A model generated the notes under the pieces. It was not told where the DNA came from and made no database searches. It saw only the letters and a program-made list of their open reading frames with translations. From Amycolatopsis cihanbeyliensis (GTDB lineage: Bacteria > Actinomycetota > Actinomycetes > Mycobacteriales > Pseudonocardiaceae), in NCBI RefSeq assembly GCF_006715045.1, contig NZ_VFML01000001.1, positions 3,316,501-3,380,500 on the forward strand: DNA of 64,000 nt, written 5' to 3'. A program made the position numbers and the translations under genes. Within the stretch, counting starts at the first letter, position 1; each line of letters opens with the position of its first letter. Positions 1 through 57,306 of the stretch are shown here, piece after piece.

Positions 1-3000
1 GTCCACCGCGGGAGCCTCGCCGGTTCCCGCCCCCGCCAGCACCCCGTCCACGGCCGTGACCAGCTCGCGCAGCCGGTCGCGGTCCCGCGCGGAGAGCACG
101 AACACCCTGCGGGCCGCCCCCGCCGGTGCCGCGCCCGCTTCCCGCGGGTACTCCTCGAGCACCAGGTGGGCATTGGCGCCGCCCGCGCCGAACGCGCTCA
201 CCCCGGCGCGCAGCGGCCCGGGCGCCGACCAGGGCGCTCGTTCCCGCTGCACCCGCAACGGTACCGAGTCCCAGTCGATCTTCGGGTTCAGCGTCTCGGC
301 GTGCAGCGAGGGCACCAGCTCCCGGTGCCGCAGCTGTAGCAGCACCTTGGTCACGGCGGCCACCCCGGCCGCGGACTCCAGGTGGCCGAGGTTGGACTTG
401 ACCGAGCCGAGCGCGATCGGCCGCGCGTCCGCCCGCCGGTCGCCGAAGGCCCGGACCAGGCCGGCCATCTCGGTCGGGTCGCCGAGTGCGGTGCCGGTGC
501 CGTGCGCCTCCAGGTAGGAGATCGAGGCCGGGTCGGTGCCCGCGTCCCGCAGCGCGGTGCGGATCAGCTCGCCCTGCGCGTTCGGGTTGGGCACGGCGAA
601 CCCGCCGGTCTTGCCGCCGTGGTTGAGGGCGCCGCCGCGGATCACGCCGAGGATCCGGTCCCCGTCCCGCTCCGCAAGGGCCAGCGGTTTCAGCAGCAGC
701 GCGCCCACGCCCTCACCGGGGACCATCCCGTCGCCGCCGGCGCCGAAGCTGCGGCACCGCCCGTCGGTTGAGGTGAACCCGCCGGTCGCGAGCTGCACGT
801 ACTTGCGCGGGTGTGGGGTGAGGTTCACCCCGCCTGCCAGTGCGTAGTCCACCTGGCCGTGCCGCAGCGCCTCGCAGGCGAGGTGGATCGCCGAGAGCGA
901 GGAGGAGCACATGGTGTCCACGGCAAGGCTCGGCCCGGTGAAGTCGAAGAAGTAGGACAGCCGGTTCGCGATGGAGGCGTAGCCCATCCCGCCCGCCAGC
1001 CCGTCCTCGGTCTCGAAGAGCTGGTAGTGCCCGTACATCACGCCGACGTAGACGCCCACGGCGTGCGGGCGCAGCCGGGCCCGCGGATAGCCCGCGTCCT
1101 CGAGGGTGTGCCAGGCGGTCTGCAGCAGCAGCCGCTCCTGCGGGTCGGTGAACTCGGCCTCCCGCAAGGACATCTGGAAGAACCGCGGGTCGAACTCGTC
1201 GATGCCGTCCAGGAAGCCGCCCCACCCGCTGACCGGCGTCCCGTCCACCTCGGGCATCGAGTGCCGGTCCCAGCGGTCCGCGGGAACCTCGGTGACGCAC
1301 TCCTTGCCCGCGCGCAGGTTCGCCCAGAACTGCTCCACGTCCGCGGCCATCGGGTACCGGCCGGCCATGCCGACGACCGCGATCCCGTCCCGTTCCGCGG
1401 TCGTGCCCGGCGGCGCCTCGGCGACGGCGGGTTCCGGGCGCCGGGCAGGCTCGGCCGGGGGCGCGGTGGCCGCCGCCACCGGCTCCGGAGCCTCCGGGGC
1501 CCGCTGCCGGTCCGGCAGCAACGCGGCCCGCAACGCGTCCGCGTGCTGCTCCAGCAGGAAGTCCACCAGCTCGCCGATGGTCGGGTACTCGAACAGCAGG
1601 GTGGCCGGCAGCGAACCCACCTCGGCCGAGAGCAGGTCGATCACCCTGGCCGAGGTGAGCGAGTCGACCCCGAAGTTCTCGTAGGTCTCGCCCGCGGACA
1701 GCCGGTCCTCGGGGACCTGGAGCACCTCGCGGAAGGCACCCCGCACGTAGCCGAACACCGCCTCGCGCAGCGACTCGGCTTCCACCGGGGGTGTGGCGGG
1801 CGCGGTCCGTGCCGCCGACGCCGGGGTGCCCCACTCGGCGACCACCAGATGCTGGGTACCGTCCTCGTCCGCGGGAACCGGCAGCACGCGGCCGAACCCG
1901 GCCCGCCGCAGCGCCTGCCGCCAACCGTCGCCGGACAGCAGCGGGGATCCGGGCAGCCGCAGGTGCTCGTCGGTGTTCAGCCACCAGCCGTCCAGCAGGC
2001 CGAAGGTGAGGGTGGCGGTGAGCACGTTCGCGGTGGCCTCGTTGAGCACCAGCCAGCCGCCCTCGCGCAGCAGCGAACCCACGTTGCCCAGGGTGGCCAG
2101 CAGGTCCCCGGTGGCGTGCAGCACGTTGGCCGCGATCACCACGTCGAACCCGCCGGCGGGGAAACCCTGCGGCTCGGGGTCACTACCGATGTCCAGGGTC
2201 CGGAACTCGAGGTACGGGTGCCGCTCGGCGAACTGGGCGCGACCGTGCTGCAGGAAGGCACCGGAGATGTCGGTGTAGACATAGCGCAGGTCCGGCGCGA
2301 ACCCGGCGATCTCGGGAAGCACCCCGGCCGTGGTGCCACCGGTACCGGCCCCGATCTCCACAATGGACACCTGACCGCTTCCGGTGTCCCGCTCGACCCG
2401 GCTGCGCACGGCGGAGGACACCAGGTGGTTGGCCCGGTCCACCACCGGGCTGCCCTGGTAGGCGCCCTCGACCAGTTCGGTGGAGCCGCCGGGGAACATC
2501 ACCTCGGTGGCCCGGACCCGGCCGCTCATCACCTCGAACAGCTTGTGCAGGCAGGGCCGCAGCAGCCGGTCGAAGCGGTTCAGCGCGGGGGTGTTCGCGC
2601 ACAGCTCGACCAGCTCGGCCTCCGGGTCGCCGGTGACCTGCCCGGCCACCGCCTCCCGCTCGTCGCCGCCGGTCTCCGCCAGGTACCCCCGCAGGGTGAG
2701 CATGCGCAGCAGCTCGGCGAGCAGGCGGCGGTACTTCGGCAGCACACCGAGCCGCTCGGCCAGCGCGCCGGTGGTCCACCGCTGCCCGGCAGCGGTGAAC
2801 ACCCCCTGCTCGGTCAGCATCCGCCACAGCCAGTCCAGCATGATCCGCTCGAGGCGGCTGCCGTCCGCCTCGGTGAGCAGCCGCGGCACCGGCGGCAACC
2901 CGGCAGGCTCGGCCAGCTCGGCGAACACCGGGGGTTCGGCCGCCTCGCCCGCGGCGGTGAAGTCCACCCCCGCGGACTCCAGCACCTGCCTGCTGGCCTT

Positions 3001-6000
3001 GGTGACCACGAGCTGGCGCTGCCCGCCGGCGAGCACCCGCTCGATCGCGGCCATCCCCTCCGCCGGGTCCAGCGAGTAGATGCCCTGCCTGGCGAGGCGC
3101 TCGCGGTAATGGTCCCGCGCCACCACGCCGACGGTGCCCCAGTAACCCCAGTTGACCACCCGGACGGTCGCGGTGGAGTGCTCGTCCAGGAAGTGCGCGA
3201 AGGCGTCCTCGAAGGTACTGCCAGCGGCGTAGTTGCTCTGGCCCGCGCTGCCGGACAGCGCCACGGCCGAGGAGAAGAACAGCACGAAGTCCAGTGGCAG
3301 CGAGCCGGTCGCCGCGTGCAACGCCACGCTGACCCTGGTCTTGGCTTCCAGCGCCGACCGGAAGGTGGCCTCGTCCATCCTGGCCAGCGACTGGTCGTGC
3401 AGGACGATCGTGGAGTGCACCACGCCGTGCAGCGGGCCCCGCTCGGTGATCCGCCGCACCACCTCGCGCAGCGCGGCGGGGTCGCCCGCGTCGGCCCGCT
3501 CGTACCGGACGAACCGGCCTTCCGGGTCGATCTCGCGCAGCCGCTGCCGCCGGTCTTCGCCCAGCTCGCCGCGGCCGACAAGGACCACGCTCGCGCCGAA
3601 GGTGCCGACCAGCCAGGCGGTGAGCTCCAGCCCGATCCCGCCCGCGCCGCCCAGGATCAGGTAGCTGCCGCCGGAACGGACGCGCGCACGGGCACCGTCC
3701 TCGGCCGCCGCGGCCGGGACGAGGTCGCGCCGGTACAGCGTGCCCCCGCGCAGGGCGAGTGGCCCGCCGGTGTCCCCGCCGCCGGTGACCAGCCGGGCGG
3801 CCCGGCCGGGTTCGGTACCCGCGGTGAGGTCGAGCAGGCCGACCCGCCAGCGCGGGTACTCCTGCGCCAGGGACAGGGTCAGCCCGTGCAGGCTGGCCGC
3901 GAACGGGTCGCGCACCGGCTCCCCGGTCACCGCGCAGGCGTCCTCGGTCACCACGGTCAGCCGCACCGGCCGCGCCGAGGCCCCGGCCGCCAGCAGGTTC
4001 TTGACCAGACCGAACAGGGCCAGCACCCCGCGCCGCTGGCCGGTCTCCAGCGCGTCCGGGTCGTCGGCGCGGCGCGCGGGGGCGGGGGTGCCGAGGAAGA
4101 ACACGCTGCCGGGTACGCCCTCCAGCGAGCCGGCCTGCTCCGGGGACACGATCAGCGGGCCGCCGCCGATCTCCGCGGCCACCGCGCGGGCGAGCTCGCC
4201 CTCCGGCTCGGCCGCGACGATCCACACCGGACCCTGCCGCTCGCCGGCCGGATCCGGGGTGGGCACCGGTCGCCAGCGCGGGGCGAACAGCAGGCCGTCC
4301 AGCTCCGCCCGCTCCGACCGCTCCACCGGTTCCACCGGAGCGGGCGCGGGGGTGCCGGCGCCGCCCGCGGGGCGCAGGGCCACGTCCCGCAGCCGCACGC
4401 AGATCCGGCCACCCTCGTCGGCGAGGTCGATCTGGTACCGGTCCGCCCCGCTGGGCCGCACCCGCGCGTAACCCACCGCACCGGGGGTGTGCCGGACCTC
4501 CACGGCGGCCACCGCGAACGGCACCATCGCCGCCGACTCCCGGTCCCGCAGCACCCCGAAGGTGTGCAGCGCGCCGTCCAGCAACGCGGGCGCGAGCACG
4601 CACCCGGCCAGTTCGGGGATCTCCGGGGTGCGCAGGAGGGCCAGCGCCCCGCCCTCGCCGAAGGCCACCCACTCGAGGCCGCGCAGCGCGGGCCCGTACT
4701 CCGATCCGGCCGCGGCGAGGTCGGCGTACAGCCGCTGCCCCTCCTGCCGGTGCGGGTACTCCCCGGCAGGGCGACCCAGGTCGATCCGCTCGTCGGCGGT
4801 CTCGGCCAGGGCTTCGATCCGGCCCTCGGCGAAAGTGGTGTCCGTGCCGAGCAGGCTGAACCGCAGGCCACGGTCCTCCTCCTGGTGCAGCCGCAGCCGG
4901 ACGGCGGGCTCGGTGCCGGTGAGCGGGCGCAGCCAGCGGACGTCCCGCAGCACCAGCCGCTCGCCCATACCGGCGGCCACCGCCGCCGCGCGGGCCAGTT
5001 CCAGCACGGCGACCCCGGGCAGCAGGGTGCTGCCGCCGATCCGGTGGTCGGCGAGCACCGGGTGCGCCGGGTCCAGTTCCGGGGCGAAGGCCAGGCCACC
5101 CGCCACGCTGCCGGCCGGATCGATCGCGCCGAGCAGCGGGTGGGTGCGCACCGCCCCGCCGGGTTGCGGCGCGGGCGCGGGCCGCCACAGCGTGGCCTCG
5201 TCGGTGATCCAGCAGCGCATGCGCTCGAACGGGTAACCGGGCAGCGGGATCCGCCGCGCGGCCCGCTCCTCCGGCCAGTCCACGGTGGACCCTTCGGTCC
5301 ACGCCCTTGCCAGCTCGGCGGGACTCGTCCCGGGTGCCGGGCGCTCGCCGCCCCGCCGGGCGCGGCCGGACACGGTGCCGGTCCACCCGTGCTCACCGGG
5401 CTCACCGGTGCGGGCGAACTCGCGCAGCCGCGCGACCAGCGCGGGCAGCGAGTCGGCGACGACGGCCAGCCGCTCGGGCAGCGGCTCCCGCCCCGCCCGC
5501 AGGGTGTGCGCGACATCGGCGGGATCGGCCTCGGCACCGTCCAGTGCCTCGGCGAAGGTCCCGGCCAGCACCCGCAGCCGCTCGGCCGTCTTGGCGGAGA
5601 ACGGGAACACCCGCTCGGCCGCCGCGGCCGCCCGCCCGCGCGGCTCGGCCCGGTACTCCTCGACGATCAGGTGCGCGTTCGCCCCGCCCGCGCCGAACGA
5701 GCTGATCCCCGCGCGCAGCGACCCTTCCGCCCGCCAGGGCGCGGACTCCCGCTGCACGGCGAACGGGGAACCGGTCCAGTCGATGTTCGGGTTCGGCGTC
5801 TCGGCGTGCAGCGAGGGCACCAGCGTCCGATGCTCGAGCTGCACCAGCACCTTCGCCAGCGCGGCCATTCCCGCGGCCGACTCGAGGTGACCGAGGTTGG
5901 ACTTCACCGAGCCGATCGGCAGGCCACCCTCGGGCAGCCCGGTTCCGGCGAAGGCGCGGGTCAGCCCGCGGATCTCCACCGGGTCGCCGAGCGAGGTGCC

Positions 6001-9000
6001 CGTACCGTGAGCCTCCACATAGGACAGTGAGCCGAGGTCGACCCCAGCGGACTCGGCCGCCTGCCCGATCAGGTCGCCCTGGGCAACCGGGTTGGGTACG
6101 GTGAAACCGTTGGTCTTCCCACCGTGGTTGATGCTGCTGCCGAGGATGGTGGCGTGGACGTGGTCACCGTCGCGCAGCGCGGCACTCAACGGTTTGAGCA
6201 GCACCGCGCCCACGCCCTCGCCCGGAACGTAGCCGTCCCCGCCCTCGCCGAAGCTGCGGCACCGCCCGTCGCTCGAGGTGAACTGGCCCTGGCCGAGGAA
6301 GCGGTACTTGTACGGGTGGACGTGCAGGTTGACCCCGCCCGCGATGGCGAGTTCGGCGTCCCCGGAACGCAGGTCCTTGATCGCGAGGTGGATCGCCGAC
6401 AGCGCCGAGGAACACATGGTGTCCACCGCGACACTCGGCCCGCTCAGCCCGAGGGTATAGGAGACCCGGTTGGAGATCGCGGCGTAGGAGGAGGCCGCGA
6501 TCCGGCCGTCCTGCCCCTCGTAGAGCTGGTAGAGGGTGTACATCGCGCCCACGTACACCCCGGCCCTGAGCTGTTGCAGGGCCTGCCTGGTGTAACCCGC
6601 GTCCTCCATCGCGTGCCAGGTGGTCTGCAGGAACAGCCGCTCCTGCGGGTCGATGATCTCGGCCTCGCGCGGGGAGATCCCGAAGAACAGCGGGTCGAAG
6701 GTCTCCACCCCGTCCAGGAAGCTGCCCCAGCGGCTGTAGGCGGCGGACTGGTCGGCCGGGGTGGCGTCCTCGTAGTCCCGCCAGTCCCAGCGCTCCGGCG
6801 GGATCTCGGTGATCAGGTCGCGGCCCGCGCTGAGGTTGGCCCAGAACTCGTCCAGCGTGTCCGATTCGGCGAACCGCACGCTCACCCCGATGATCGCGAT
6901 CGGCTCGGTGTCCCCGGCTCCGGCGGCCGGTTCGGTGCGCGCGGGCGGCGCGGGCTCGGGGTCCGGCCCCGCCTGCGGTGCCGGCTCCGACTCCGGCTCC
7001 GGTACCGGCCGCGTTTCCGCCTCGGCAGCGGTGACCGTGTCCGGGTAGCGCTCGGCGAAGTAGCCCGCCAGCGAGCGCAGGTCCTGGTACTCGAAGAACA
7101 GCGTCTTCGGCAGTGGGCCGAAATGCTCCTCCAGTTGCCGGGTCATGTCCATGATCAGGATCGAGTCGATGCCGTAGGACTCGAAGGCGACCTCGGGCTC
7201 GATCTCCTCGACGGTCATGCCGAACACCTCGGCGAGCACCGGCCGCAGGTACTCCTCGGCCGCCCGCGCCGGATCCGCGGACCGGATGGGTCGCGGGGCC
7301 GGGCCGGGCGCGGTCTCGGCGGCCGGTTCCGGCGCCCGCGGTCCGGCCGCCGTGTTCGCCAGCAGCTCGGCCACCTTGCCCTGCTCACCCTGGGCGATCA
7401 GCACATGGTCCCGGCCGCTGGAGACCGCGGCGTCGAAGGCGGCCAGCCCGGCGCTGGTCGGCAACGCCCGCAGCCCGGCCCGCCGCACCATCCGCGCCTG
7501 CGCGGCATCGTCCATGTCCATCCGGATACCGCCCTCGGCCCACAGCGACCACAGCAGGGACAGCGTGTGCCCGGAGCGCCTGCCCTCCAGCCGCCGCGCC
7601 TCCCGCCAGGCTGCGAAGTGGTCGAGGAACCGGTTGGCGTAGGCGTAGTCGGCCTGGCCCGGCGATCCGGCCGCGCCGGACATGGAGGAGAACAGGATGA
7701 AGAAGTCCAGCGGCTCGTCGGCGGTGGCGCGGTCCAGCTCGACGGTGCCGCGGACCTTGGGAGCCAGCACCTCGGCCAGCTCGGAATCCGCTTTGGTCAG
7801 CAGGAACCCGTCCCTGGTCACCCCGGCCAGGTGCAGCACCCCGTGCAGCGCGCCGTGCGACTCGCGTACCCGCCGGACGAGATCCTCGGCGGCTCCCCGC
7901 TCGCCGAGGGCGGCGGGGAGGTACTCCACGTCGATCCCCTGCCTGCGCAGGGCGTGCAGCCGCGGCTGCACGTCCACGTTCGACGAACGTCCACTGAGGA
8001 CGAATCGGGCCCTGCCCTTGGTGGCGAGGTGCGCGACGAGGAGCTGACCGATCCCGCCGAGCCCGCCGGTCACCAGGTAGGTGCCCCCGTCCCGCAGCGC
8101 GGGCCCGAGGCCGTCGCGGTCGAAGGACTCGACCGGCTCCCAGCGCGGTACCCGGCGGCCGCCGGTGTCATGGCTGACCGCGAACTCGTGCTCCGGCGCG
8201 GCGAGCTCGGCGGCCAGCAGCGCGGACAGTTCCCCGGAAGCGGTGTCCGGGACCCCGACCACCGAGACGCGGAAGTCGGGCTGCTCGTTCGCGATCGCCT
8301 TCGCCATCCCGTCCAGCGCGGCTTCCAGCGCATCGTCCAGGGTCTCCCGCCGCGGGGACAGCCACAGCAGCCGCACGGGCCTGCGGGTCGCGCCCTCGGC
8401 GGCACCGGACCAGCCGCGGAAGACCGTGGCCAGCCGCCGCACCGCCGCCTCCAGCGGGCCCGTGCCGGTGGTGGAGGTGCCGTCCCACACCAGGGTGATC
8501 GGGTCCCGCCCGGCGGCGTGCAGCTCGGCGAACAGCTCGCGCCAGTCCTCCTCGGCGTCCGGGCGCAGCCGGCGGTCCCGGCCCGAGCCGGATGCGGTGG
8601 CCGCGGGCCGCACCGTGTACAACTCGGCCGGATCGAGCTCGGCGGCCAGCCGGGGGTCGGTACCGAGCAGCACAACGGTGTCCCGGGTGCCTTCGGCGCG
8701 CTCCGGCAGCGGCGCCGGGTGCCAGACCTGCCCGAAGGCCACGGTCCGCGGGTTCGCCGCGCCGGAGCCGGGATTCAGGGCGTGCTCCCCGTGCACGGCC
8801 CTGGTCATCAGGCCGCGCATGCGCAGCAGCACCCGGCCGTCGTCGTCCAGCAGGGTCAGCTCGTGCCCGTGTGCCTTCCCCGCGCGAGCCCCGGTGTCCA
8901 CTTCGGACGGAACGGCGTGCACCCAGGCACGGCGCGGCAGTGGGCGCACGATCTCCAGCGCGGTCAGTGCGAACGGCAGCCTGCGCATGCCGTCCCCCGC

Positions 9001-10107
9001 CGGGTCCGCCGCGGTCCACAGCGCGGCCTGCAACATCCCGTCCAGCAGCGAGGGGTGCAGGGTGAAGGTCTCCGCGGGCAGCTCGACCGACGCGGGCACC
9101 TCCAACCTGGCCAGCACCTCCCGGTCCCCGCGCAGCACCGAACCGATCGGCTGGAAGCTGGGCCCGTAACCGCCGCCGAGCCGGTCGAACAGCTCGTAGC
9201 ACTCCCGATCGGTGAGCGCCTGCTGGCAGCGCTGCCGGATGGCCGCGATGTCCACCACCTCGGCGAGGTCGGCCTCGTCGGGTTCGCCGAACAGCAGGGT
9301 TCCCGCCGAGCACAGCTCGCCGTCCGGACCCGTGCCGGACCGCAGCTCGTAGGACATACCGTCCGGGGTGGACGCCAGCCGTAGCCGTACGTCCACCGGG
9401 TCGGCGGCGACGATCACCGGGCGGGACCACAGCACGTTGCCGATCCCGCGCACGGTGCCGTACCCGGCTCGGGTGGCGGTCGCGGTGGCCAGCTCCAGCG
9501 CGACCACCGCGGGCAGCACCTTCAGCTCGCCGATGGCGTGGTCGCGCAGGAAGAACTCCTGCCCGGTGAGGGTCACCGCGTACTCCCTGCGCCCGGACTG
9601 CACGCCCTGCGCGGCCAGCGGATGCGCGACCGGTGCCACCGGGCGGGCCGGCTCGCTGACCCAGAACCGCTTGGTGTCGAACGGCGCGGTCGGCAGGGAC
9701 AGCCGCGCTGGCCGCGGCGCGGGATGCAGCGCCCGCCAGTCCACCCGTGCCCCGCGCACCCACAGCCGGGCCAGCTCCTCGGGTTCCCGTTCGGCCGGGT
9801 CGGTGATCTCGGCGCCCTCGGCGTTCTCGATGTTCTCGGCGTCCGTGCCTGCGGTGCCGCGCGGCACCGCGCCCTCGGCCAGCCGCTGCCGCAGCTCCGC
9901 CACCGAGCGCGCCACCACGGCCAGCCGCTCGCGCAGGGCCTCCCTGCCGACCTGCAGGGTGTAGGCGACGCGGCGAAGGTCGGCTTCCGGGTGCTCGGCC
10001 AGCCACTCGAGCACCCGCTCGACGTAGCGGTCCAGCGGGGCCGGGCCCGCCGCGGACAGCACGACGACCTGCGGCCCGGCGTCTGTCATCCCTGTTGTCC
10101 CTGTCAC
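1..10107 (-). CDS. Trans-AT PKS, KirAIV-like (partial, runs off left edge): DH-KR-ACP / KS-DH-KR-MT-ACP / KS
   Basis: This gene continues beyond base 1; 3,369 codons are visible. It begins with the KS-flanking subdomain that belongs to the KS ending the upstream protein (residues 1-165, ending LPTAPFDTKRFW). A DH-like domain follows (His190 in DHAIGELKVLP, Asp356 in LHPSLLDGMLQ), then KR (GGLGGIG near 695, FSSMSG, catalytic Tyr821 in ADYAYANRF) and ACP (Ser982 in GIDSI). Next come KS (about 1068-1483, Cys1232 in TMCSSAL), DH (His1688 in DHRIGGSTLLPG, Asp1844 in LLDGALH), KR (GGAGGIG near 2154, Tyr2293 in SNYAAGS), C-methyltransferase (EIGAGTGG near 2585), ACP (Ser2816 in GVDSL) and KS (about 2910-3316, Cys3067 in TMCSSSL). 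There is no AT domain, so extender units must come in trans. Predicted chemistry is a CH=CH unit, then CH=C(CH3). The GTG start overlaps the upstream stop as GTGA; an in-frame ATG lies 6 codons later (10089). Domains were read directly from the minus strand; the kirromycin assignment is inference. Confidence 0.93.
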   Translation of the reverse strand, partial: MTGTTGMTDAGPQVVVLSAAGPAPLDRYVERVLEWLAEHPEADLRRVAYTLQVGREALRERLAVVARSVAELRQRLAEGAVPRGTAGTDAENIENAEGAEITDPAEREPEELARLWVRGARVDWRALHPAPRPARLSLPTAPFDTKRFWVSEPARPVAPVAHPLAAQGVQSGRREYAVTLTGQEFFLRDHAIGELKVLPAVVALELATATATRAGYGTVRGIGNVLWSRPVIVAADPVDVRLRLASTPDGMSYELRSGTGPDGELCSAGTLLFGEPDEADLAEVVDIAAIRQRCQQALTDRECYELFDRLGGGYGPSFQPIGSVLRGDREVLARLEVPASVELPAETFTLHPSLLDGMLQAALWTAADPAGDGMRRLPFALTALEIVRPLPRRAWVHAVPSEVDTGARAGKAHGHELTLLDDDGRVLLRMRGLMTRAVHGEHALNPGSGAANPRTVAFGQVWHPAPLPERAEGTRDTVVLLGTDPRLAAELDPAELYTVRPAATASGSGRDRRLRPDAEEDWRELFAELHAAGRDPITLVWDGTSTTGTGPLEAAVRRLATVFRGWSGAAEGATRRPVRLLWLSPRRETLDDALEAALDGMAKAIANEQPDFRVSVVGVPDTASGELSALLAAELAAPEHEFAVSHDTGGRRVPRWEPVESFDRDGLGPALRDGGTYLVTGGLGGIGQLLVAHLATKGRARFVLSGRSSNVDVQPRLHALRRQGIDVEYLPAALGERGAAEDLVRRVRESHGALHGVLHLAGVTRDGFLLTKADSELAEVLAPKVRGTVELDRATADEPLDFFILFSSMSGAAGSPGQADYAYANRFLDHFAAWREARRLEGRRSGHTLSLLWSLWAEGGIRMDMDDAAQARMVRRAGLRALPTSAGLAAFDAAVSSGRDHVLIAQGEQGKVAELLANTAAGPRAPEPAAETAPGPAPRPIRSADPARAAEEYLRPVLAEVFGMTVEEIEPEVAFESYGIDSILIMDMTRQLEEHFGPLPKTLFFEYQDLRSLAGYFAERYPDTVTAAEAETRPVPEPESEPAPQAGPDPEPAPPARTEPAAGAGDTEPIAIIGVSVRFAESDTLDEFWANLSAGRDLITEIPPERWDWRDYEDATPADQSAAYSRWGSFLDGVETFDPLFFGISPREAEIIDPQERLFLQTTWHAMEDAGYTRQALQQLRAGVYVGAMYTLYQLYEGQDGRIAASSYAAISNRVSYTLGLSGPSVAVDTMCSSALSAIHLAIKDLRSGDAELAIAGGVNLHVHPYKYRFLGQGQFTSSDGRCRSFGEGGDGYVPGEGVGAVLLKPLSAALRDGDHVHATILGSSINHGGKTNGFTVPNPVAQGDLIGQAAESAGVDLGSLSYVEAHGTGTSLGDPVEIRGLTRAFAGTGLPEGGLPIGSVKSNLGHLESAAGMAALAKVLVQLEHRTLVPSLHAETPNPNIDWTGSPFAVQRESAPWRAEGSLRAGISSFGAGGANAHLIVEEYRAEPRGRAAAAAERVFPFSAKTAERLRVLAGTFAEALDGAEADPADVAHTLRAGREPLPERLAVVADSLPALVARLREFARTGEPGEHGWTGTVSGRARRGGERPAPGTSPAELARAWTEGSTVDWPEERAARRIPLPGYPFERMRCWITDEATLWRPAPAPQPGGAVRTHPLLGAIDPAGSVAGGLAFAPELDPAHPVLADHRIGGSTLLPGVAVLELARAAAVAAGMGERLVLRDVRWLRPLTGTEPAVRLRLHQEEDRGLRFSLLGTDTTFAEGRIEALAETADERIDLGRPAGEYPHRQEGQRLYADLAAAGSEYGPALRGLEWVAFGEGGALALLRTPEIPELAGCVLAPALLDGALHTFGVLRDRESAAMVPFAVAAVEVRHTPGAVGYARVRPSGADRYQIDLADEGGRICVRLRDVALRPAGGAGTPAPAPVEPVERSERAELDGLLFAPRWRPVPTPDPAGERQGPVWIVAAEPEGELARAVAAEIGGGPLIVSPEQAGSLEGVPGSVFFLGTPAPARRADDPDALETGQRRGVLALFGLVKNLLAAGASARPVRLTVVTEDACAVTGEPVRDPFAASLHGLTLSLAQEYPRWRVGLLDLTAGTEPGRAARLVTGGGDTGGPLALRGGTLYRRDLVPAAAAEDGARARVRSGGSYLILGGAGGIGLELTAWLVGTFGASVVLVGRGELGEDRRQRLREIDPEGRFVRYERADAGDPAALREVVRRITERGPLHGVVHSTIVLHDQSLARMDEATFRSALEAKTRVSVALHAATGSLPLDFVLFFSSAVALSGSAGQSNYAAGSTFEDAFAHFLDEHSTATVRVVNWGYWGTVGVVARDHYRERLARQGIYSLDPAEGMAAIERVLAGGQRQLVVTKASRQVLESAGVDFTAAGEAAEPPVFAELAEPAGLPPVPRLLTEADGSRLERIMLDWLWRMLTEQGVFTAAGQRWTTGALAERLGVLPKYRRLLAELLRMLTLRGYLAETGGDEREAVAGQVTGDPEAELVELCANTPALNRFDRLLRPCLHKLFEVMSGRVRATEVMFPGGSTELVEGAYQGSPVVDRANHLVSSAVRSRVERDTGSGQVSIVEIGAGTGGTTAGVLPEIAGFAPDLRYVYTDISGAFLQHGRAQFAERHPYLEFRTLDIGSDPEPQGFPAGGFDVVIAANVLHATGDLLATLGNVGSLLREGGWLVLNEATANVLTATLTFGLLDGWWLNTDEHLRLPGSPLLSGDGWRQALRRAGFGRVLPVPADEDGTQHLVVAEWGTPASAARTAPATPPVEAESLREAVFGYVRGAFREVLQVPEDRLSAGETYENFGVDSLTSARVIDLLSAEVGSLPATLLFEYPTIGELVDFLLEQHADALRAALLPDRQRAPEAPEPVAAATAPPAEPARRPEPAVAEAPPGTTAERDGIAVVGMAGRYPMAADVEQFWANLRAGKECVTEVPADRWDRHSMPEVDGTPVSGWGGFLDGIDEFDPRFFQMSLREAEFTDPQERLLLQTAWHTLEDAGYPRARLRPHAVGVYVGVMYGHYQLFETEDGLAGGMGYASIANRLSYFFDFTGPSLAVDTMCSSSLSAIHLACEALRHGQVDYALAGGVNLTPHPRKYVQLATGGFTSTDGRCRSFGAGGDGMVPGEGVGALLLKPLALAERDGDRILGVIRGGALNHGGKTGGFAVPNPNAQGELIRTALRDAGTDPASISYLEAHGTGTALGDPTEMAGLVRAFGDRRADARPIALGSVKSNLGHLESAAGVAAVTKVLLQLRHRELVPSLHAETLNPKIDWDSVPLRVQRERAPWSAPGPLRAGVSAFGAGGANAHLVLEEYPREAGAAPAGAARRVFVLSARDRDRLRELVTAVDGVLAGAGTGEAPAVD

Positions 10108-13100
10108 GCTGCGGATGCCTCCTCGAGCACGACGTGCACGTTGCTGCCACCCATGCCGAACGAGCTGACCCCGGCGCGCCGCGGCCAGTCCGCCGCGGTG
10201 CCGTCCCGCCGGGGCTGCCACGGGGTCGTCTTCTGCTGGAACTCCAGCGGGGTGCCGGTCAGATCGATCATCGGGTTGGGCTGGGCGAGGTGCACCAGCC
10301 CCGGCAGGGTCCGGTGCCGCATGGCCAGCAGCACCTTGAGCACACCCGCGACACCGGCGGAGGCCTCGAGGTGCCCGATGTTGCTCTTCACCGAGCCGAG
10401 CGCGATCCGGGCTGCCTCGGGGGGCAGGCTCCAGCGGTCGAGCAGCCTGCCGAACGCCTCCTTCAGCCCGTCCACCTCGATCGGGTCGCCGAGCTGGGTT
10501 CCGGTGCCGTGCGCCTCGACGTAGCCGATCGAGGCCGGGGACACCTCGGCCGCCTCGTGCGCCCGCACCACCACATCGCTCTGCGCCCGGGGGCTCGGCG
10601 CGGTCAGCGACTGGGTGCGGCCGTCGTGGTTCTCCGCCGACCCGATGAGCACGCCGTGCACCGGGTCGCCGTCGGCGCGCGCCCGGTCCAGCCGCTTGAG
10701 CAGCAGCAGCGCGACCCCCTCGCCGCGGCCGTACCCGTCGGCCCGCTCGTCGAAGGTCTTGCAGCGGCCGTCCGGGCTGAGCATCCCGGCGCGCTGCAAC
10801 CCGACGAAGCCGTACGGGGACAGCAGCAGGTTCGCCCCACCGGCCAGCGCCGTCTCGCAGTCGCCCGCCTGCAGTGCCCGCGCGGCGCGGTGAATGGCGA
10901 CCAGCGAGCTGGAACAGGCGGTGTCGTAGGTGGCGCTCTGCCCGTGGAAGTCGAACAGGTAGGAGATCCGGTTGGCGGCGACCGAGGCCACGTTGCCGAT
11001 CAGGAAGTGGTCGTCGGCCTCCCGCTCGTAACCGAGCAGGCTGAAGTAGTCGGCGCCGCTGAGCCCGACGAACACGCCGGTACGGGAACCGGACAGCTCC
11101 GCCGGCGGGTAGCCCGCGTCCTGCATCGCCTGGTGCGCGGCCTGCAGCAGCAGCCGGTGCTGCGGATCCATCTGCGCGGCTTCCCGCGGCGAGATGCGGA
11201 ACAACCCGGCGTCGAAACCCTCCACGTCCCGCAGGTAGGCGCCGGGGAAGGCGTCCGGCGCGCCCGCGGCGTGCTCGGCGAACAGCGACCGGGAGAACCC
11301 GCGCTGCAGCGGGTACGGCCGGATCAGGTCCCGGCCCGCGGCCAGGTGTGCCCAGAACTCCTCGAGCGTGTCGGAGTCGGGCAGGCTGCCGCCGACGCCG
11401 ATGATCGCCACCGGCGGGTACCCCGCGGCGGCGGGCGGTGCGGGCGCCGCCGGGGTCGTGCGGGCCGCGCCGTGTTTGCCCACCAGGTGCGCGGTCAGCT
11501 CGCGCAGGGTCGGGTACCCGTAGAAGGTCGTCGGCGGCACCTCGATGCCGAACCGTTCCCGCAGGCCCACGCTGAGCCGGGTGAACCGGATCGAGTCGAA
11601 GCCGTAGTCCCCGAGCGGGGTGTCCACGGCCAGCTCGGCAGGCTCCGCCCCGGCGATCTCCGCGACCAGCTCGCGCAGCCCCGCGCCGAGGGAGTCCGTG
11701 CGGTCCGGCGGTTCGGGTGCGGGCGCGGGCTCGGGCGCTAGGTCGATGCCGAAGCGGCCCACGATCTCGTCCAGTGCCCGGTCCCGCAGCGGTGCCAGGT
11801 CGATCTTGGCGTTCGGGGTCTGCGGGAACGCCGCCAGCGGCAGCAGCCGGGCCGGGATCATGTACCCGGGCAACCATTCGGCGAGCCGCTCCCGCAGCAA
11901 CGCCTCCAGGTCCGGACGCGGCTCGGTGACCGTGACGAACCCGACAAGGCCCTCGTGCCCGGCGAAGTCCTCGCGCAGCAACACCCGCGCCTCGTCGACC
12001 AGCCCGGTGCGGCGCAGCGCGGACTCCACCTCGCCCGGCTCGATCCGGTAACCGCGCAGCTTCACCTGCCGGTCCGCCCTGCCGAGCAACTCCACGCTGC
12101 CGTCCTGGCGGAACCGCCCGAGGTCCCCGGTGCGGAACATCCGCGCACCGGAGCGCGGATCGGTGACGAACCGCTCCGCGGTGAGCTCCGGCCGCCCGAG
12201 GTAGCCGCGGGCCAGCCCGTCCCCGCCGATCCACAGCTCGCCCGCGGCCCCGAACGGCACCGGGTGGCCGTGCTCGTCCCGCAGGTGGAAGGTGGTGTTC
12301 GCGATCGGCGTCCCGACGGTGACCGGCGCGCCGGGACGGACCCTGCTGATCGAGGACCAGATCGTGGTCTCGGTCGGGCCGTACATGTTCCACACCTCGG
12401 CGCAGCGGCTGAGCAGTTGCTCGGCGAGTTCGGCAGGCAACGCCTCGCCACCGCAGAGGATCTTGCCCGCCAGCGGCCGGTCCCAGCCCGCGGCCAGCAG
12501 CATCCGCCAGGTGGCGGGGGTGGCCTGCACGATGGTGGCGGCGGAGGCGGCAAGGTGTCCGGCGAGCGCCACCCCGTCCCGCGCCAGCCAGGCGGGCACG
12601 ATCTCCACGGTGCCGCCGCGGGTCAGCGGCAGCAGCAGTTCCAGCGCGGCGATGTCGAACCCGACCGTGGTGAGCGCGAGGATATGGTCGCGCTCGGTGC
12701 AGCCGGGCTCACGCGCCATCGAGGTCAGGAAGTTCACCAGGCTGTCGTGCCCGATCTGCACACCCTTGGGGCGACCGGTCGAGCCGGAGGTGTAGAGCAC
12801 GTAGGCCAGCTCACCGTGCCGGTCGTCCGGTAGCGGGTGCGGCGGGGCCGCCCAGTCGATCCGGTCCAGTGTGGACTGGGTGAGCACCGTGCCGATTCCG
12901 GCGTCGGTACGGATGAACTCGCGCCGCTGCTCGGGGAACTCCGGGTCGAGCGGCACGTAGGCGCATCCCGCGCGCAGCACCGCGAGCAGCGCGACCACCA
13001 GGTCGGCCCTGCGGTCCACGGAGATCCCGATCAGCGAGCCCGGCGTGTGCCCCTCGGCCCGCAGCCACCCGGCCAGCAGCTCCACCCTCCTGGCCAGTTC

Positions 13101-14686
13101 ACGATAGTCCACACTGGACTCGGCGTCCACGATCGCGGTCTTGTCCGGGGTGCGCTCGGCCCGGTCCAGCACCAGGTCCGCCGCGGTGACCCCGGCGGGG
13201 TAGCCGGCATCGGTGGCGTTCACCCGCTCCAGCAGCGTGCGCTCGGCCGGGGTGTGCGGGTCGATCGCAGCCGGCTCCGCGTCCGGGTCCACGGCGGTGA
13301 GCCCGGCGACGAGCTCGCGGTACTGCTCGGCGAGCCGGGCCGCCGTACCGGGATCGAACAGCTCGGGGTCGTACTTGAAGTGGATCAGTGCCTGGCGGTC
13401 CCGCACCACGAACTCGACGACCAGGTCGCCCTCGCCCTCCTGGGTCAGCGGAAGGGCCTCGGTGAACAGGGTCTGTTCCCGCGCCATGTCGAGGTCCCTG
13501 CCGACCCCCTGCTGCAGGTAGAAGCCGATGGTGAACTCGGTGTCCGTGCGGCTGGCCCGGCGCAGGTCGTCCACCACGGCGGCGTAGGGGTAGGCGCTGT
13601 GGTCCTCGGCCGCCAGCAGTTCCTCGTGGATGCCCTGGAACAGCTCGCGGCAGGTCTGCCCGCGCGGGCAGGCGGTGCGCAGCACCACCGGGTTGATCAG
13701 GTAGCCGACGGTGCGGTCGAACCGGTGCGCGGCGCGGCCGTCGGTCGGCACCAGCACGCTGATGTCCCGCTGCCCGCTGTGCCGGTGCAGCAGCAGGACG
13801 AACGCGCCGAACACGATGCTGAACGGGGTCAGACCCAGCTCCGCGGCCCGGGTGCGCACCGCGGTCAGGGTGGCCTCGTCCACGTCCAGTTGCAGGCTCT
13901 CCCCGGCATAGCTGGGCGGGCCGGTCCGGCGGCGGTCGGCGATCGCGTCCACCACCGGGGCGCTCGCGGCCCCTTCCAGCTTGCGCAGCCAGAACTCCCG
14001 GTGCCGGTCCGCCTCCGGCCCGGCGAGCAGTTCCCGTTGCCAGTACACGAACTCCCGGTACGGTGTCGCCGGCTCGGCCGGCGGGACGGCGCCGCTCGCG
14101 GTGAGGCCGTCGTAGGCGGCGAGGATGTCCCGCAGCAGCAGGTGGCTGGACACCCCGTCGGTGATCAGGTGGTGGAACACCAGCAGCAGCACCGGTTGCG
14201 CGGGCGTGCGCAGGAAGTAGGCCCGGTACAGCGGCTCGGTCTCCAGGTCGAACGGGGTGCGCACGAGCTGCCGGACCCGGTCCGGCAGCTCCGGCTCGGC
14301 GACCGCCGTGAGGTCCAGTTCGGTGACGGTGAGCCCGCGCTCGGCGACCACCTGCACCGGCCCCTCCCGGTCCAGCCGCAGGTTGACGCGCAGGCTCGGG
14401 TAGCGGCGCACCACCGTGTCCAGCGCCCGCTCCAGCAGGGTGAGGTCCACGTCCGGCCGCAGCCGCAGGGCGAGCGGCAGGTTGTAGGACACGGTGCCGG
14501 GGGCGTTCTGGTGGATGGCCCACAGCGCGGCCTGCCCGCGGGTGAGCGGGTACTCCTTCGGCTCCTCCGGTTCCTGCTCCTGTTCCTGCTCCGCCATGGT
14601 GAGCAGTTCCCGCAGCAGCGGCGCGGCCTCCTCCTCGGTCACCGCGCCCGCGGCCACGCCTTCCAGCAGGTCCCGCAACGAGTTCG

Positions 14687-14690
<4 letters not shown>
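10104..14690 (-). CDS. NRPS-PKS hybrid, KirAIII-like: C-A(Gly)-PCP-KS
   Basis: This 1,528-aa protein inserts an amino acid into the polyketide. Residues 1-35 form a two-helix N-terminal docking element (motif GAVTEEEA). A condensation domain follows with HHLITDG at 173-179. The adenylation domain covers about 500-1000 (LYTSGSTGRPKG near 630, YGPTETT, GYRIEPGEVE, NAKID lysine). The carrier protein has its serine in GFDSIRF near 1030, and the KS covers about 1092-1528 (TACSSSL, EAHGTGT, NIGHLEA). Aligned by eye to the PheA pocket, the specificity residues read D-I-L-Q-L-G-M-I-W plus the invariant Lys, a pattern typical of glycine-activating domains. The protein stops right after the KS core; its flanking subdomain is on the next protein. 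The ATG overlaps the upstream stop (ATGA) and the stop overlaps the next start (GTGA), so translational coupling is likely. Confidence 0.95.
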
Positions 14691-27865
<13,175 letters not shown>

Positions 27866-27886
27866 GAACACTCCAAACTCCGATGG

Positions 27887-33856
<5,970 letters not shown>

Positions 33857-34085
33857 ACGCGACCCCCATCACAAACGGAATCGATCACCAATACAATGAT
33901 GATCCTTGCCTGCTGACATTAACGTCCGCAGGCGCCTTTTCTTCCTACCATATGAACATAGTCGCCTCAAGGAGGCGCCGTTGACCCCAGGCGGACGTGG
34001 TTATTTCTGCCGGCGCCGGTACGGGCAAAAATCCACCGGCGCCAAGCAGGATCAATCGCGTACGACGACGCTGTCCTCGCCTACT
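33857..34085. other. Intergenic region between the methyltransferase and first PKS gene, with two hairpins
   Basis: This 229-bp stretch is visibly AT-richer than its neighbours. It has a 9-bp perfect inverted repeat (GGCGCCGGT 34012-34020 with ACCGGCGCC 34035-34043, 14-nt loop) about 40 nt after the methyltransferase stop. A small hairpin CGCCTC-AAG-GAGGCG lies at 33963-33977. Neither is followed by a U-run on the minus strand. I saw no convincing -35/-10 pair for the PKS gene, so read-through from the promoter at 35,100 remains possible. Confidence 0.5.
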
Positions 34086-35048
34086 TCACGCAGTTTTTAC
34101 CGCAACGTGGTGACGGTAACTTTCGACCGGAAGGTGCCGGCCGTGCGGCAGTACACCGAGCTTGCGAAGCAGCTTGATGTACCCGCTGTCCTGGTAACCC
34201 GCGAAGACCCCGCCGAAGATCACCGTCCGCGAGTGCTCGGCGATGCGCCGGGTCAGCGGCGGCAGCCGCTTGTCGGCGAACGTCTTGCGGAAGTGGCTTC
34301 CGGGGGCGAGCCTACGCCGGATACCCGCTCTGACCTCAGCGGATATATCCCGCTCGTGGATCCAGTCGAGCCCGGGCAGGTCCCGCTTGAGCCGCGTCAT
34401 CAGCTCGTAGCGCTGCCTCGTGAACACGTCGATGTGCGCGAGATAGCCGCCCGGCTTCAGGACCCGCATCGCTTCTTCGAAGAATGTGCGCAGGTCAGGA
34501 TAGGTGTGGGAACTCTCGATGTTGATCAGGACGTCGAACTGGGCGCCCTCGAAGGGCAGCTCTTCGGCGTCGCCCTGCACGTAGCGCAGCCGATCACCCC
34601 TGCCCAGAGTGGCGTTCGCCCGCTTGACAGCGAGCGGAGAAAGATCCAGACCAACCAGGTTGCTGCCGTCGCCGAGCAGGCGGGACAGGAAGTTCAGCCC
34701 CTCGCCGCTGCCGCAGCCGACCTCGAGCACCGACTTTTCCGAGTACTCGGAAAAGCCCAGCGGGATATCCTTGAGAGCGAGAAAGTAAAGTTGCTCGGAG
34801 ATACCGTCCGTTTCGAAATCGGTGAACCCCGGTATCAGCTTCTCGATCTCGGCGGCAACCTCCTCGTCATACATCCCCCAGTTCCATATGTCACCCTTGC
34901 TGGATCCGAGTGCGGCCATATCGTAGACCGAGGAGGTATTCCCCTTCAGCCGACTGCTACGGGAGCCTTCGACCGGCACGTCCCCGCTCGACGCGTTGAT
35001 CTCGTTAAGCCCCTCGGTGAATTCACCGATGGCTTTTGGCGCACCCAT
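34086..35048 (-). CDS. SAM-dependent class I methyltransferase, probable tailoring enzyme
   Basis: This protein of about 320 aa carries the Rossmann-fold SAM motif EVGCGSGEG, a second-strand acidic site (LVGLDLS), QGDAEELPF (motif II) and a MRVLKPGGYL post-motif, typical of small-molecule O-, N- or C-methyltransferases. It is co-directional with and just upstream of the PKS genes, so the best guess is a tailoring enzyme for the antibiotic; kirromycin-class compounds carry O-methyl and sometimes N-methyl groups. The site of methylation cannot be told from the sequence. Start ATG 35048 has AAAGGG six bases upstream; a GTG two codons earlier (35054) is the alternative. A good -35/-10 pair lies 48-76 bases before the start. 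The gene uses more AT-ending codons than the PKS genes, which hints at separate acquisition. Confidence 0.85.
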   Translation of the reverse strand: MGAPKAIGEFTEGLNEINASSGDVPVEGSRSSRLKGNTSSVYDMAALGSSKGDIWNWGMYDEEVAAEIEKLIPGFTDFETDGISEQLYFLALKDIPLGFSEYSEKSVLEVGCGSGEGLNFLSRLLGDGSNLVGLDLSPLAVKRANATLGRGDRLRYVQGDAEELPFEGAQFDVLINIESSHTYPDLRTFFEEAMRVLKPGGYLAHIDVFTRQRYELMTRLKRDLPGLDWIHERDISAEVRAGIRRRLAPGSHFRKTFADKRLPPLTRRIAEHSRTVIFGGVFAGYQDSGYIKLLRKLGVLPHGRHLPVESYRHHVAVKTA

Positions 35049-35095
35049 CGCCACCCTTTCTCTGCCCCCAGGTTCGGCAGAATCGCCTCATTTGG

Positions 35096-35124: not shown

Positions 35125-35498
35125 CCCGCCGTTAGTGACCCGCCGACAACCAGACGAGTGAACAAATGCCCGATATGTTCTCCGATTCCGTTATGACCAC
35201 CCGAGATGTCGCCGTGTGTGACCACGCTCCCACGCTACCCCCGGGACCGTGATGTGATCGGACTCTCAAGTCCCACCACCCGCCCCGGCACGACGGTTAG
35301 CCCGCGAAACGCACTCCCGGCCGGCCCGCCGACTACGGTTAGCCCGCTAAACGCACCTCCCGGGGACGGCTTGGGTACGGTTTGCCCGCTGAACGCACCA
35401 CGGGGTGGAACCGGGGACGCCTTGTCCAGGTCATAGGTGCGGCCGACCGGCCGGCACATGCGATAGTGCGTGAGCCGTACGACGAGAGGGGCAGCCCG
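35125..35498. other. Divergent intergenic region with three dyad repeats
   Basis: This stretch separates the minus-strand methyltransferase and the plus-strand WXG100 gene. It contains the first cluster of the 42-bp repeat (listed separately). I see no further gene and no strong plus-strand -35/-10 pair. Confidence 0.5.
35293..35400 (+). repeat. 42-bp tandem repeat cluster 1 (three dyads, 42-bp spacing)
   Basis: Three copies of a dyad with consensus GGTTAGCCCGCTAAACGCAC start at 35295, 35337 and 35379, exactly 42 bp apart. Copy 2 is a perfect match. The core is a near-perfect inverted repeat, GGTTAGC-CC-GCTAAAC. It lies 100-200 bp before the WXG100 gene. Confidence 0.85.
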
Positions 35499-35819
35499 AT
35501 GAGCGGCGGATTCACGGTCAACGAGGACGAGTTGCGCACCTACGCGGGAAAGCTGGCCGACCAGAAGGGCACCGCAGGCGATATCGCCGGCCTGGTCGAC
35601 ACGGCGGACGTCGGTGACGAGTCCTGGGGCGTTGTCGGGATCTTCGTCAAGGGCAAGTACACCGAGATGCTGGGGGACCTGAAGGATCTGTGCACCGACC
35701 TGCAGAACGGGCTGCAGAGCGGCTCGGACAAGTTCACCCAGGCCGCGGACGGCTACCGGCAGCACGAGGACGCCGTCGTCCAGCTGCTCGACGGCCTGAA
35801 GGTGCAGATCGACAACTGA
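35499..35819 (+). CDS. WXG100/EspC-like type VII secretion substrate
   Basis: This small, almost entirely helical protein has 106 aa, the size expected of ESX (type VII) secretion substrates or chaperones. A W-G-x-x-G turn (SWGVVG, about residue 45) sits between two predicted helices, as in WXG100 proteins. No signal peptide or membrane segment is seen. The ATG at 35499 follows GAGAGGGG at a good distance; longer in-frame starts upstream read through the repeat region and have no ribosome site. It is the first gene of a four-gene plus-strand cassette; the next gene starts 34 nt after its stop. No ESX ATPase or EccB-E gene is in the window, so the secretion machine must be elsewhere. Confidence 0.8.
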   Translation: MSGGFTVNEDELRTYAGKLADQKGTAGDIAGLVDTADVGDESWGVVGIFVKGKYTEMLGDLKDLCTDLQNGLQSGSDKFTQAADGYRQHEDAVVQLLDGLKVQIDN

Positions 35820-35853
35820 CCCACCGGGTGAGGGCGAGGGACGGGGCAAGGAC

Positions 35854-36990
35854 ATGGCCGAGCAAGAGCACGCAGCCGGTGGGGTCACCATCAAGACCGG
35901 CGAGAAGGACCTCGGTACGAAGGCCACAGAGGCCGTGCCGCTCTACGGCAACGTGGTCAAGACCTTCGACGCCGGCTCCAAACTCACCGACGGCGCGACC
36001 GGCTCCGAGGTCGGCGCCCTGGTGGGTGAGGGCTCCGGATTCATCCAGTCGCTGGCGGGGGCCGGGCTCGGGATCGCCACCGACCCGATCGGCTGGCTGG
36101 TCGGCCAGGGGCTCAACTTCCTGATCAGCGTGGTCCAGCCGCTGGAGGACGCGATCCACTTCGTCAGCGGCGACGGTCCCGCGCTCGCCCAGGCCGCGGA
36201 GAACTTCGACGCGATCGGCAAGGGCGTCATCGAGCTGCGGAAGACCTTCGAGGAGGAGCTGAAGAACTCGTTGCAGACCTGGGGTGGTGATGCCGCGGAG
36301 GCCGCGGGCACCAGGTTGGGTGAGTTCGCCAAGGGCATCGACGGGGTGGCCGGGCAAGCCGGCGAGGTGTCCCAGCTACTGCAGATGTCCAGCATGGTGA
36401 TGACCGTCATCGAGGAGTTCATCAAGGCGCTGCTCACCGAGTTCGTCACCTGGTTGATCATGATCTGGATCCCGGCGCTGGCCGCGGCCGTGCCCTCCTT
36501 CGGCGCCTCGACCGCCGCCGCGGGCACCGCCACCACGGCGAAGGCGGCGTCCGCCGGCAGCAGGGTCAGCAGGACGATCGCCAAGCTGCGCAAGCTGCTG
36601 GACGACATCATGGCCTTCCTGCGCAGCCTGCGGACGAGGATGGGCAACGTCCGCACCGCTTTCAAGCAGGCCATGGACACCAAGCGCATGCAGCGCGGGC
36701 TGGCCGACCTGGAGCTGCAGGGCGTGGGCGGGTCGCCGCTCGCGAAGCCGGTACAGAAGCTTTACGGCTCGGACGGGATGATCGGCGGCCGGGTGCAGGA
36801 CGGCTTCGGCAGGTCGATGGTGAACCAGGTCGGGGACACCGCCGCGGCACAGGTGGGGGCAGGCACCGGCACGAACGCGGGCGTGGACAAGGCGGCCCGC
36901 AACTACAGCAACCTGCAGAAGGGCGAGGAGTACGACGAGACCGGCGCCGACCAGTCCAAGGAAGAGACGGAAGGCTACCTGGACATCTGA
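35854..36990 (+). CDS. Helical WXG-motif protein, probable type VII secretion-associated
   Basis: This 378-aa protein is alanine- and glycine-rich at the start and strongly helical in the middle. The TWGGDAAEAA turn around residue 145 resembles the WXG turn of ESX substrates, and the helices on both sides could form the WXG100 hairpin. A hydrophobic stretch (about 190-215, FVTWLIMIWIPALAAAV) is long enough to be a membrane segment. The second half is basic and helical, then becomes Gly/Ala-rich and ends acidic (EETEGYLDI). No toxin domain is recognised at the C-terminus. ATG 35854 is preceded by AAGGAC. Its position right after the WXG100-like gene suggests the two are partners. Confidence 0.75.
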   Translation: MAEQEHAAGGVTIKTGEKDLGTKATEAVPLYGNVVKTFDAGSKLTDGATGSEVGALVGEGSGFIQSLAGAGLGIATDPIGWLVGQGLNFLISVVQPLEDAIHFVSGDGPALAQAAENFDAIGKGVIELRKTFEEELKNSLQTWGGDAAEAAGTRLGEFAKGIDGVAGQAGEVSQLLQMSSMVMTVIEEFIKALLTEFVTWLIMIWIPALAAAVPSFGASTAAAGTATTAKAASAGSRVSRTIAKLRKLLDDIMAFLRSLRTRMGNVRTAFKQAMDTKRMQRGLADLELQGVGGSPLAKPVQKLYGSDGMIGGRVQDGFGRSMVNQVGDTAAAQVGAGTGTNAGVDKAARNYSNLQKGEEYDETGADQSKEETEGYLDI

Positions 36991-37053
36991 GCTTGTTGTT
37001 CAACCTGGTTGCCCGAGAACCGCTGTTCGAGCCACAACCGGATAGGGAAGGTC

Positions 37054-37941: not shown

Positions 37942-37966
37942 CACGGCGTGACAGGGTCGGCCGGGC

Positions 37967-38843: not shown

Positions 38844-38857
38844 GGGGGGGCATGAAG

Positions 38858-38904: not shown

Positions 38905-42819
<3,915 letters not shown>

Positions 42820-42910: not shown

Positions 42911-46414
<3,504 letters not shown>

Positions 46415-46450
46415 GATGCGTCCTTCCGGGGACATAGCGGTTGCGCAGCC

Positions 46451-49144: not shown

Positions 49145-49180
49145 GAAACTCCAGAGTAGGTAAGCGGTGTCAGATGACTG

Positions 49181-57302: not shown

Positions 57303-57306
57303 GCGA

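Follow-up and report, generated by a model that had tools for sequence, protein, structure and literature searches.

The window analysed here is a 64,000-nucleotide stretch of Amycolatopsis cihanbeyliensis DNA (C1:3316501-3380500, in a genome of 7,435,439 bases on two contigs). Its left part carries a portion of a gene cluster that, judged from its sequence, almost certainly belongs to the elfamycin (kirromycin-type) class. In the domain scan, four minus-strand polyketide synthase (PKS) and nonribosomal peptide synthetase (NRPS) genes and one methyltransferase gene occupy positions 1-35054 (Table 1), and the same insert continues leftward along the chromosome for about 44 kb beyond the window. 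The cluster spans about 79 kb (C1:3272630-3351790) and is bordered by housekeeping genes, with rpsL, rpsG, fusA, tuf and the S10 operon as left neighbours and rpoC and rpoB as right neighbours. Taken as a whole, the locus is very probably a glycosylated-elfamycin cluster in Amycolatopsis, accompanied by self-protection through a change in the target, elongation factor Tu (EF-Tu).

Table 1. Features of the cluster and its right border. Positions are those of the window; genes left of the window are listed in leftward order.
Feature	Position	Strand	Basis
KirAIV-like PKS, N-terminal part: DH-KR-ACP / KS-DH-KR-MT-ACP / KS (module 9 begins)	1..10107	-	domain scan
KirAIII-like NRPS/PKS, C-A-PCP-KS, glycine-like code	10104..14690	-	domain scan, A-domain code
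KirAII-like trans-AT PKS: DH-ACP-KR / KS-KR-MT-ACP / KS-KR-ACP / KS-ACP	14687..27871	-	domain scan
KirAI-like trans-AT PKS: LnmK-type loader-ACP / KS-KR-ACP / KS	27887..33856	-	domain scan; loader TIGR04098
S-adenosylmethionine methyltransferase, KirM-like	34086..35054	-	size, class, place
Right flank of insert, homology to cluster-less sister restarts at 35290; its four small genes match ESX/WXG-type proteins weakly or have no match	35290..38773	+	
rpoC, housekeeping border on right	38905..42819	-	
rpoB	42911..46435	-	
Remainder of KirAIV-like protein: modules 9-11 and a KS	left of window	-	
KirAV-like protein: DH-ACP-KR / KS-DH-KR-ACP	left of window	-	
KirAVI-like protein: KS-AT-DH-KR-ACP / KS-relic AT-ACP	left of window	-	
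300-amino-acid protein, no Pfam match, NcmC-type Dieckmann cyclase	left of window	-	
Second NRPS, C-A-PCP	left of window	-	
370-amino-acid Methyltransf_2 protein	left of window, between second NRPS and AT-AT-ER gene	-	
AT-AT-ER protein	left of window	-	
Two P450s, heme-cysteine motif present	left of window	-	
PhyH protein (oxygenase)	left of window	-	
Discrete AT	left of window	+	
EryCIII-like glycosyltransferase	left of window	-	
Second glycosyltransferase	left of window	+	
TylF-family O-methyltransferase	left of window	+	
MycE-type O-methyltransferase	left of window	-	
Epimerase/reductase-family gene	left of window	+	

The assembly line and its relatives

The KirAIV-like gene runs leftward out of the window as far as C1:3306964, and its likely start at 10107 is a GTG codon overlapping the stop of the AIII gene. 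The loader of the line is an LnmK-family acyltransferase/decarboxylase (TIGR04098, 175.4 bits at a cut-off of 100 bits) that matches the LnmK structure at E=5e-6. The corresponding loaders score 195.9 bits in a second Amycolatopsis (G216), 180.6 bits in Streptomyces sp. NBRC 110611 (G150) and 190.1 bits in S. sulphureus (G162), and the literature search found no paper joining 'LnmK' with 'kirromycin'. The first-pass annotation had described a kirromycin-type trans-AT line running from the loader through KS modules and a C-A-PCP module with a glycine-like code to further KS modules, all without AT domains. The domain scan agrees with this module list and detected no integrated AT domain within the window. 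Moreover, the KirAV-like and KirAVI-like proteins, the second NRPS and the discrete ATs (an AT-AT-ER protein and a single AT) that the annotation had expected to the left were found there. With the grouping of the KS domains, they agree with the elfamycin assignment.

Module-by-module fit was judged against the skeleton of kirromycin and aurodox. On this yardstick, the goldinonic half is accounted for by modules 1-5 and glycine by module 6, and modules 7, 8 and 10-15 possess the KR, DH and MT set that the skeleton demands. The earlier statement that every reduction and methylation step falls at the right place holds for most modules and fails at two. Module 1 is without a DH of its own, though the diene demands dehydration, and module 9 is a KS-ACP without KR or MT where the skeleton demands reduction and a methyl group. 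As module 9 has this form in 4/4 clusters scanned, it is taken as a trait of the kind. The order of KS, KR and MT domains is identical in the four clusters, while some ACP and DH calls fall under the set limits in one or other of them; the domain listing omits domains below the bit limits (ACP <46, A <60) and minor open frames.

The A-domain codes were read by eye. The first is DILQLGMIWK, a glycine-like code, and the second is DIIQLGVIWK, which equals the AurB motif DTLQLGVIWK (PMC9361827) at 8/10 positions and points to beta-alanine as the predicted substrate of the second NRPS.

The KS tree comprised 56 domains, 14 each from the present cluster, G216, G150 and G162, and no kir KS. KS1-KS13 each form one clade per position with one member per cluster (13/14 positions), and KS14 is degenerate and long-branched in both G150 and G162. 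These position-by-position clades exclude a match by chance, which the first-pass annotation had already thought unlikely. The C-A-PCP-KS protein has at least 40 other end-to-end homologues (51-68% identity, >=97% of the query) among the 120 matches listed, the closest of them in A. magusensis. A scan of GTDB contigs gave 15 end-to-end KirAIII homologues among the 80 loci kept (L009-L022, L027). Across 150 genomes of the family, a close KirAIII homologue occurs only in the present genome; of the 22 that meet E<=1e-150, the remaining 21 reach no more than 49% identity. Across 80 genomes of the genus, it occurs in this one and G216. Two further candidates, G238 and G141, were set aside as close carriers at 47% and 41% identity to the KirAIII homologue and treated as other lines. 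The host reading of the annotation, Pseudonocardiaceae, agrees with the genus Amycolatopsis, to which the EF-Tu neighbours point. Its remark that elfamycin clusters are mostly known from Streptomyces requires tempering, as a kirromycin-like cluster has been published from Saccharopolyspora NFXS83 (PMC10145562).

Comparison with kirromycin and aurodox was made only through papers and single S. collinus proteins. The cluster shares with that of S. collinus Tu 365, as described in the available parts of PMC5818483, glycine and beta-alanine NRPSs, trans-AT PKSs with one AT-bearing PKS, KirCI/KirCII-type ATs, a KirHI-type cyclase, KirM, KirHVI and two P450 types. The KirM-like gene has homologues next to or inside the clusters of G216 (68%), G150 (57%) and G162 (54%). 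Additionally, G216 has an extra TylF-like methyltransferase gene (L192, G216:C1:2039520-2040293; 45% to the present one) between the M and AI genes.

The ATs differ among the four clusters. The discrete single AT carries GHSMG and VASH motifs and is of KirCII type, putatively with ethylmalonyl specificity; discrete ATs of both KirCI and KirCII type are present. The first AT of the AT-AT-ER protein reads GTSLG. In the KirAVI-like protein, the first AT retains GHSQG and YASH and the second has lost GHSxG and its central part; the motifs are present in both ATs of G216 and in neither of G150 and G162. In Streptomyces sp. NBRC 110611, the KirAVI-like protein (G150:C5:156124-164079) has lost the DTACSS motif from its last KS in addition to GHSxG from its two ATs.

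The insertion site between rpoC and rpsL

A cluster-less sister genome, G175, shares 98.9% identity with the present one in rpoB, 98.5% in rpoC and 97.3% in fusA. Its rpsL-rpoC gap measures 4,953 bp against 83.8 kb here. Homology ends at 3272630 (6823146 in G175) and restarts at 3351790 (6823382 in G175), and the insert thus amounts to 79,160 bp against 236 bp in G175, between YbaB-like and ESX-like genes. The gap ranges from 4.8 to 35.4 kb in 19/20 congeners measured, G175 included; for the 20th, G181, the contig fetched stops short of rpoC. At window positions 35290-35398 and 38774-38851 lie copies of a short repeat that has an inverted-repeat core (like GGTTAGCCCGCTAAACGCACT), flanking the ESX-like genes and marking the right junction of the insert; the sister G175 also has this repeat.

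In G216, the same genes stand in the same order with one cluster end abutting rpsL-rpsG-fusA-tuf and rpoC 30 kb past the other end. The junctions differ, since the YbaB-like gene of G216 stands towards rpoC and the one here towards rpsL, and the two placements may represent one insertion or two. In both G150 and G162, rpsJ (142263-142565 and 205660-205962, respectively) and tuf (225203 and 295833) enclose the cluster. These two were chosen because they alone of the 15 genomes (2/15) carry tuf and the KirAIII homologue on a single contig. In neither did the stretches fetched give separate hits for the second NRPS or the Dieckmann cyclase, and both clusters look phenelfamycin-type. Clusters of that type are from Streptomyces and lie between tuf and rpsJ, whereas the present one lies between rpoC and rpsL. 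Yarlagadda 2020, as reported in part in PMC8625390, sought elfamycin producers via EF-Tu A375T and described EF-Tu within the cluster in three Streptomyces; as here, an A375T EF-Tu is linked to an elfamycin cluster. Berninamycin clusters, likewise of a translation inhibitor, are also bordered by rpsL, rpsG, fusA and tuf, but berninamycin is a thiopeptide and the EF-Tu gene is duplicated in that genome, whereas tuf is single here (PMC9290621, in part). No elfamycin cluster between rpoC and rpsL was found in the literature searched, most subscription papers lying outside its coverage. The elfamycin class and the A375T logic are already known; the Amycolatopsis arrangement adds to them.

There is an even chance that the site is a general insertion hot spot, in which case its nearness to tuf would be meaningless and A375T a separate adaptation. 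The varied gap width among congeners and the differing junctions here and in G216 are in keeping with such a hot spot, and in 13/15 named cluster-bearing genomes tuf and the KirAIII homologue are not on one contig. However, the clusters of two Amycolatopsis and two Streptomyces stand against opposite sides of rpsL-rpsG-fusA-tuf, and the five widest congener gaps, when fetched, held no KS, A, C, KR or AT domain. The converse idea is a tentative one that we would not yet bet on: that elfamycin clusters repeatedly settle beside tuf in unrelated lineages, on opposite sides of this block, with the linkage held by selection.

Farther to the right of rpoB, a minus-strand Mce/Mla-type import operon (window 48383-59324) comprises two MlaE permeases, an ABC ATPase and several MlaD/Mce proteins. 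Elsewhere in the genome, big PKS genes (open frames of 2,104-7,853 aa) lie near one end of each contig (G000:C1:4150-65896 and G000:C2:2401-26612) and are perhaps one cluster split by the assembly.

Sugars, tailoring and the predicted product

On this gene content, an LnmK-type decarboxylating loader would start the chain and five PKS modules would build the goldinonic-acid half, after which an NRPS module would add glycine, nine further PKS modules would extend the chain and a second NRPS would add beta-alanine. A Dieckmann cyclase of NcmC/KirHI type would then free the chain as a pyridone, and the modules without a working AT would be charged by the discrete ATs. Oxygenases and methyltransferases would perform hydroxylation, tetrahydrofuran formation, C-20 O-methylation (presumably by the KirM-like protein) and pyridone N-methylation. 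Finally, two glycosyltransferases and two sugar O-methyltransferases would attach methylated deoxysugars. As to release, the 300-amino-acid protein matches the NcmC-type Dieckmann cyclase 6e6t (E=6.6e-50) and has a homologue of 62% identity in S. collinus, P0249; pyridone closure and release in kirromycin have been reported for KirHI (PMC5818483).

Genes for sugar transfer and sugar O-methylation are present within the cluster, and G216 conserves the set. The TylE/MycE-like O-methyltransferase matches 8ia9 (E=1.7e-87) and the MycF-like one 4xvz (E=1.4e-73). TylE and MycF act on 6-deoxyallose-type sugars of macrolides, and the present pair resemble both. A glycosylated product is therefore likely from the genes themselves. 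It is unlikely, in comparison, that the line makes a sugar-free kirromycin/aurodox-type product while these genes serve another pathway. The insert, with a single epimerase/reductase-family gene, is without a complete nucleoside diphosphate (NDP)-sugar pathway, as such a case would have it. Yet the same five sugar-type genes stand in the same order in G216 between the CII-type AT and rpsL, and here they fall inside the segment missing from G175.

Returning to the glycosylated product, its pyridone is rather likely N-methylated, judging by gene position only. The 370-amino-acid methyltransferase sits where aurM* does, between aurB and aurCI in Table 1 of PMC9361827, and the order HI, B, M*, CI, OII listed for the aurodox cluster of S. 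goldiniensis is the same here; aurodox genes have been expressed heterologously in S. coelicolor M1152 (PMC9361827). That table names no sugar genes, and the available parts of PMC5818483 give the kirromycin cluster as one without sugars, whereas the present cluster adds sugar-type genes. A glycosylated and N-methylated product is more likely than plain kirromycin.

The efrotomycin family consists of glycosylated elfamycins with methylated deoxysugars. The gene content, together with an Amycolatopsis host, suggests an efrotomycin-like product; that family, to which the compound UK-69,753 also belongs, likewise has an Amycolatopsis producer, A. lactamdurans (PMC8532670, in part). No efrotomycin-type gene cluster was found in the literature searched, within the coverage stated above. 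Identity of the strain with A. lactamdurans, which produces efrotomycin and cephamycin, was set aside on one gene only: no cephamycin-type lysine 6-aminotransferase (LAT) was found in the genome, the best TIGR03251 score being 153.1 bits against a cut-off of 520.8.

EF-Tu and probable self-protection

The genome encodes one EF-Tu, the other 11 matches being at <=35% identity, and its tuf stands 4 kb past the left end of the cluster. In this EF-Tu, the residue corresponding to E. coli 375 is Thr (418 of the query pairs with 392 of 1ob2), and the loop reads RQVNVPY instead of RQVGVPY, a change equivalent to G126N. The main tuf of 23/23 cluster-less congeners encodes Ala375 (Thr 0/23), two of them (G141 and G179) carrying in addition a second divergent EF-Tu outside this count. 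Among the best 120 EF-Tus nearest to the present one, which do not include that of G216, Ala occurs in 119/120 and the exception is the present protein itself. The EF-Tu of G216 also has Thr375. In the 15 named cluster-bearing genomes, the main tuf encodes Thr375 in 7/15 and Ala375 in 8/15. In all seven Thr375 genomes, Val of this loop is replaced by Ser, two of them also have the Asn, and 4/7 possess an additional second EF-Tu; a second divergent EF-Tu occurs in 6/8 of the Ala375 bearers.

In Salmonella, kirromycin selects A375T, which is recessive to a sensitive copy (PMC5485169, in part) and hence suits a cell with a single tuf. A resistant EF-Tu has been reported in S. cinnamoneus and in the efrotomycin-family producer N. 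lactamdurans, in line with Thr375 here, whereas the EF-Tu of S. collinus is reported as sensitive (PMC6804068, in part). It is highly likely that A375T serves self-protection in this strain, the sole tuf, in rpsL-rpsG-fusA-tuf, encoding both A375T and the loop change.

In the tuf tree, the present gene is sister to that of G175 (100/97), G216 stands apart and seven Streptomyces form one group (93/89); on the simplest reading, Thr375 arose three times. That a resistant tuf arrived with the cluster by horizontal transfer is quite improbable, and divergence, tree and replacement counts do not support it. In its favour, tuf is more diverged from G175 (dS 0.203, dN 0.050) than fusA (0.112, 0.013) or rpoB (0.111, 0.007), and its raised synonymous change makes partial recombination possible. 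However, this tuf is sister to the Ala375 tuf of G175 and apart from that of G216, and the intervening rpsL, rpsG and fusA show little divergence. The 19 replacements in 397 codons derived on this branch (8 on that of G175; 12 in 699 for fusA, 7 in 1174 for rpoB and 8 in 1304 for rpoC) suggest that a native gene has changed fast.

Several points weigh against the account of a glycosylated elfamycin with target-change protection. Efrotomycin carries three O-methyls on its sugars, and two sugar O-methyltransferases were found in the cluster. No gene for a transporter, a regulator or a PPTase turned up in the insert, nor did panD or a CCR. By comparison, the kirromycin cluster holds panD (kirD), CCR (kirN), PPTase (kirP), transporters and regulators (PMC5818483), and aurodox Table 1 lists aurD, aurN, aurT and aurR (PMC9361827). 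The aspartate decarboxylase that the first-pass annotation had expected in the cluster is instead a single genome copy of panD at C1:4700067, 1.35 Mb away, and the product does not demand it in the cluster. In favour of the account, a CCR for ethylmalonyl-CoA supply is present elsewhere in the genome (616.9 bits). Furthermore, the Dieckmann cyclase label in Table 1 of PMC9361827 is attached to aurX/kirHII and not to aurHI/kirHI. Lastly, 8/15 cluster-bearers keep Ala375, and two of them, Micromonospora rubida (L115) and Saccharopolyspora NFXS83 (L103), are without a second EF-Tu, which means that A375T is not needed everywhere.

The worth of the locus lies more in its place and target than in its assembly line. 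As a natural example, it has an antibiotic joined on one chromosome to its target and a resistance change, and with a sister whose site is empty and whose tuf is of sensitive type, the order in which insertion, A375T and further EF-Tu change came about can be tested. For the efrotomycin family, it also supplies a candidate cluster. Moreover, the last two ATs across the clusters (G216 keeps the motifs in both, the present cluster has one relic and the two Streptomyces have two) form a series for the change from cis-AT to trans-AT. If selection does hold elfamycin clusters beside tuf, a recessive single-copy resistance allele would stay linked to its cluster, a linkage that recombination with a sensitive tuf would break, and cluster and tuf would be inherited as one block in a highly conserved region of the chromosome.

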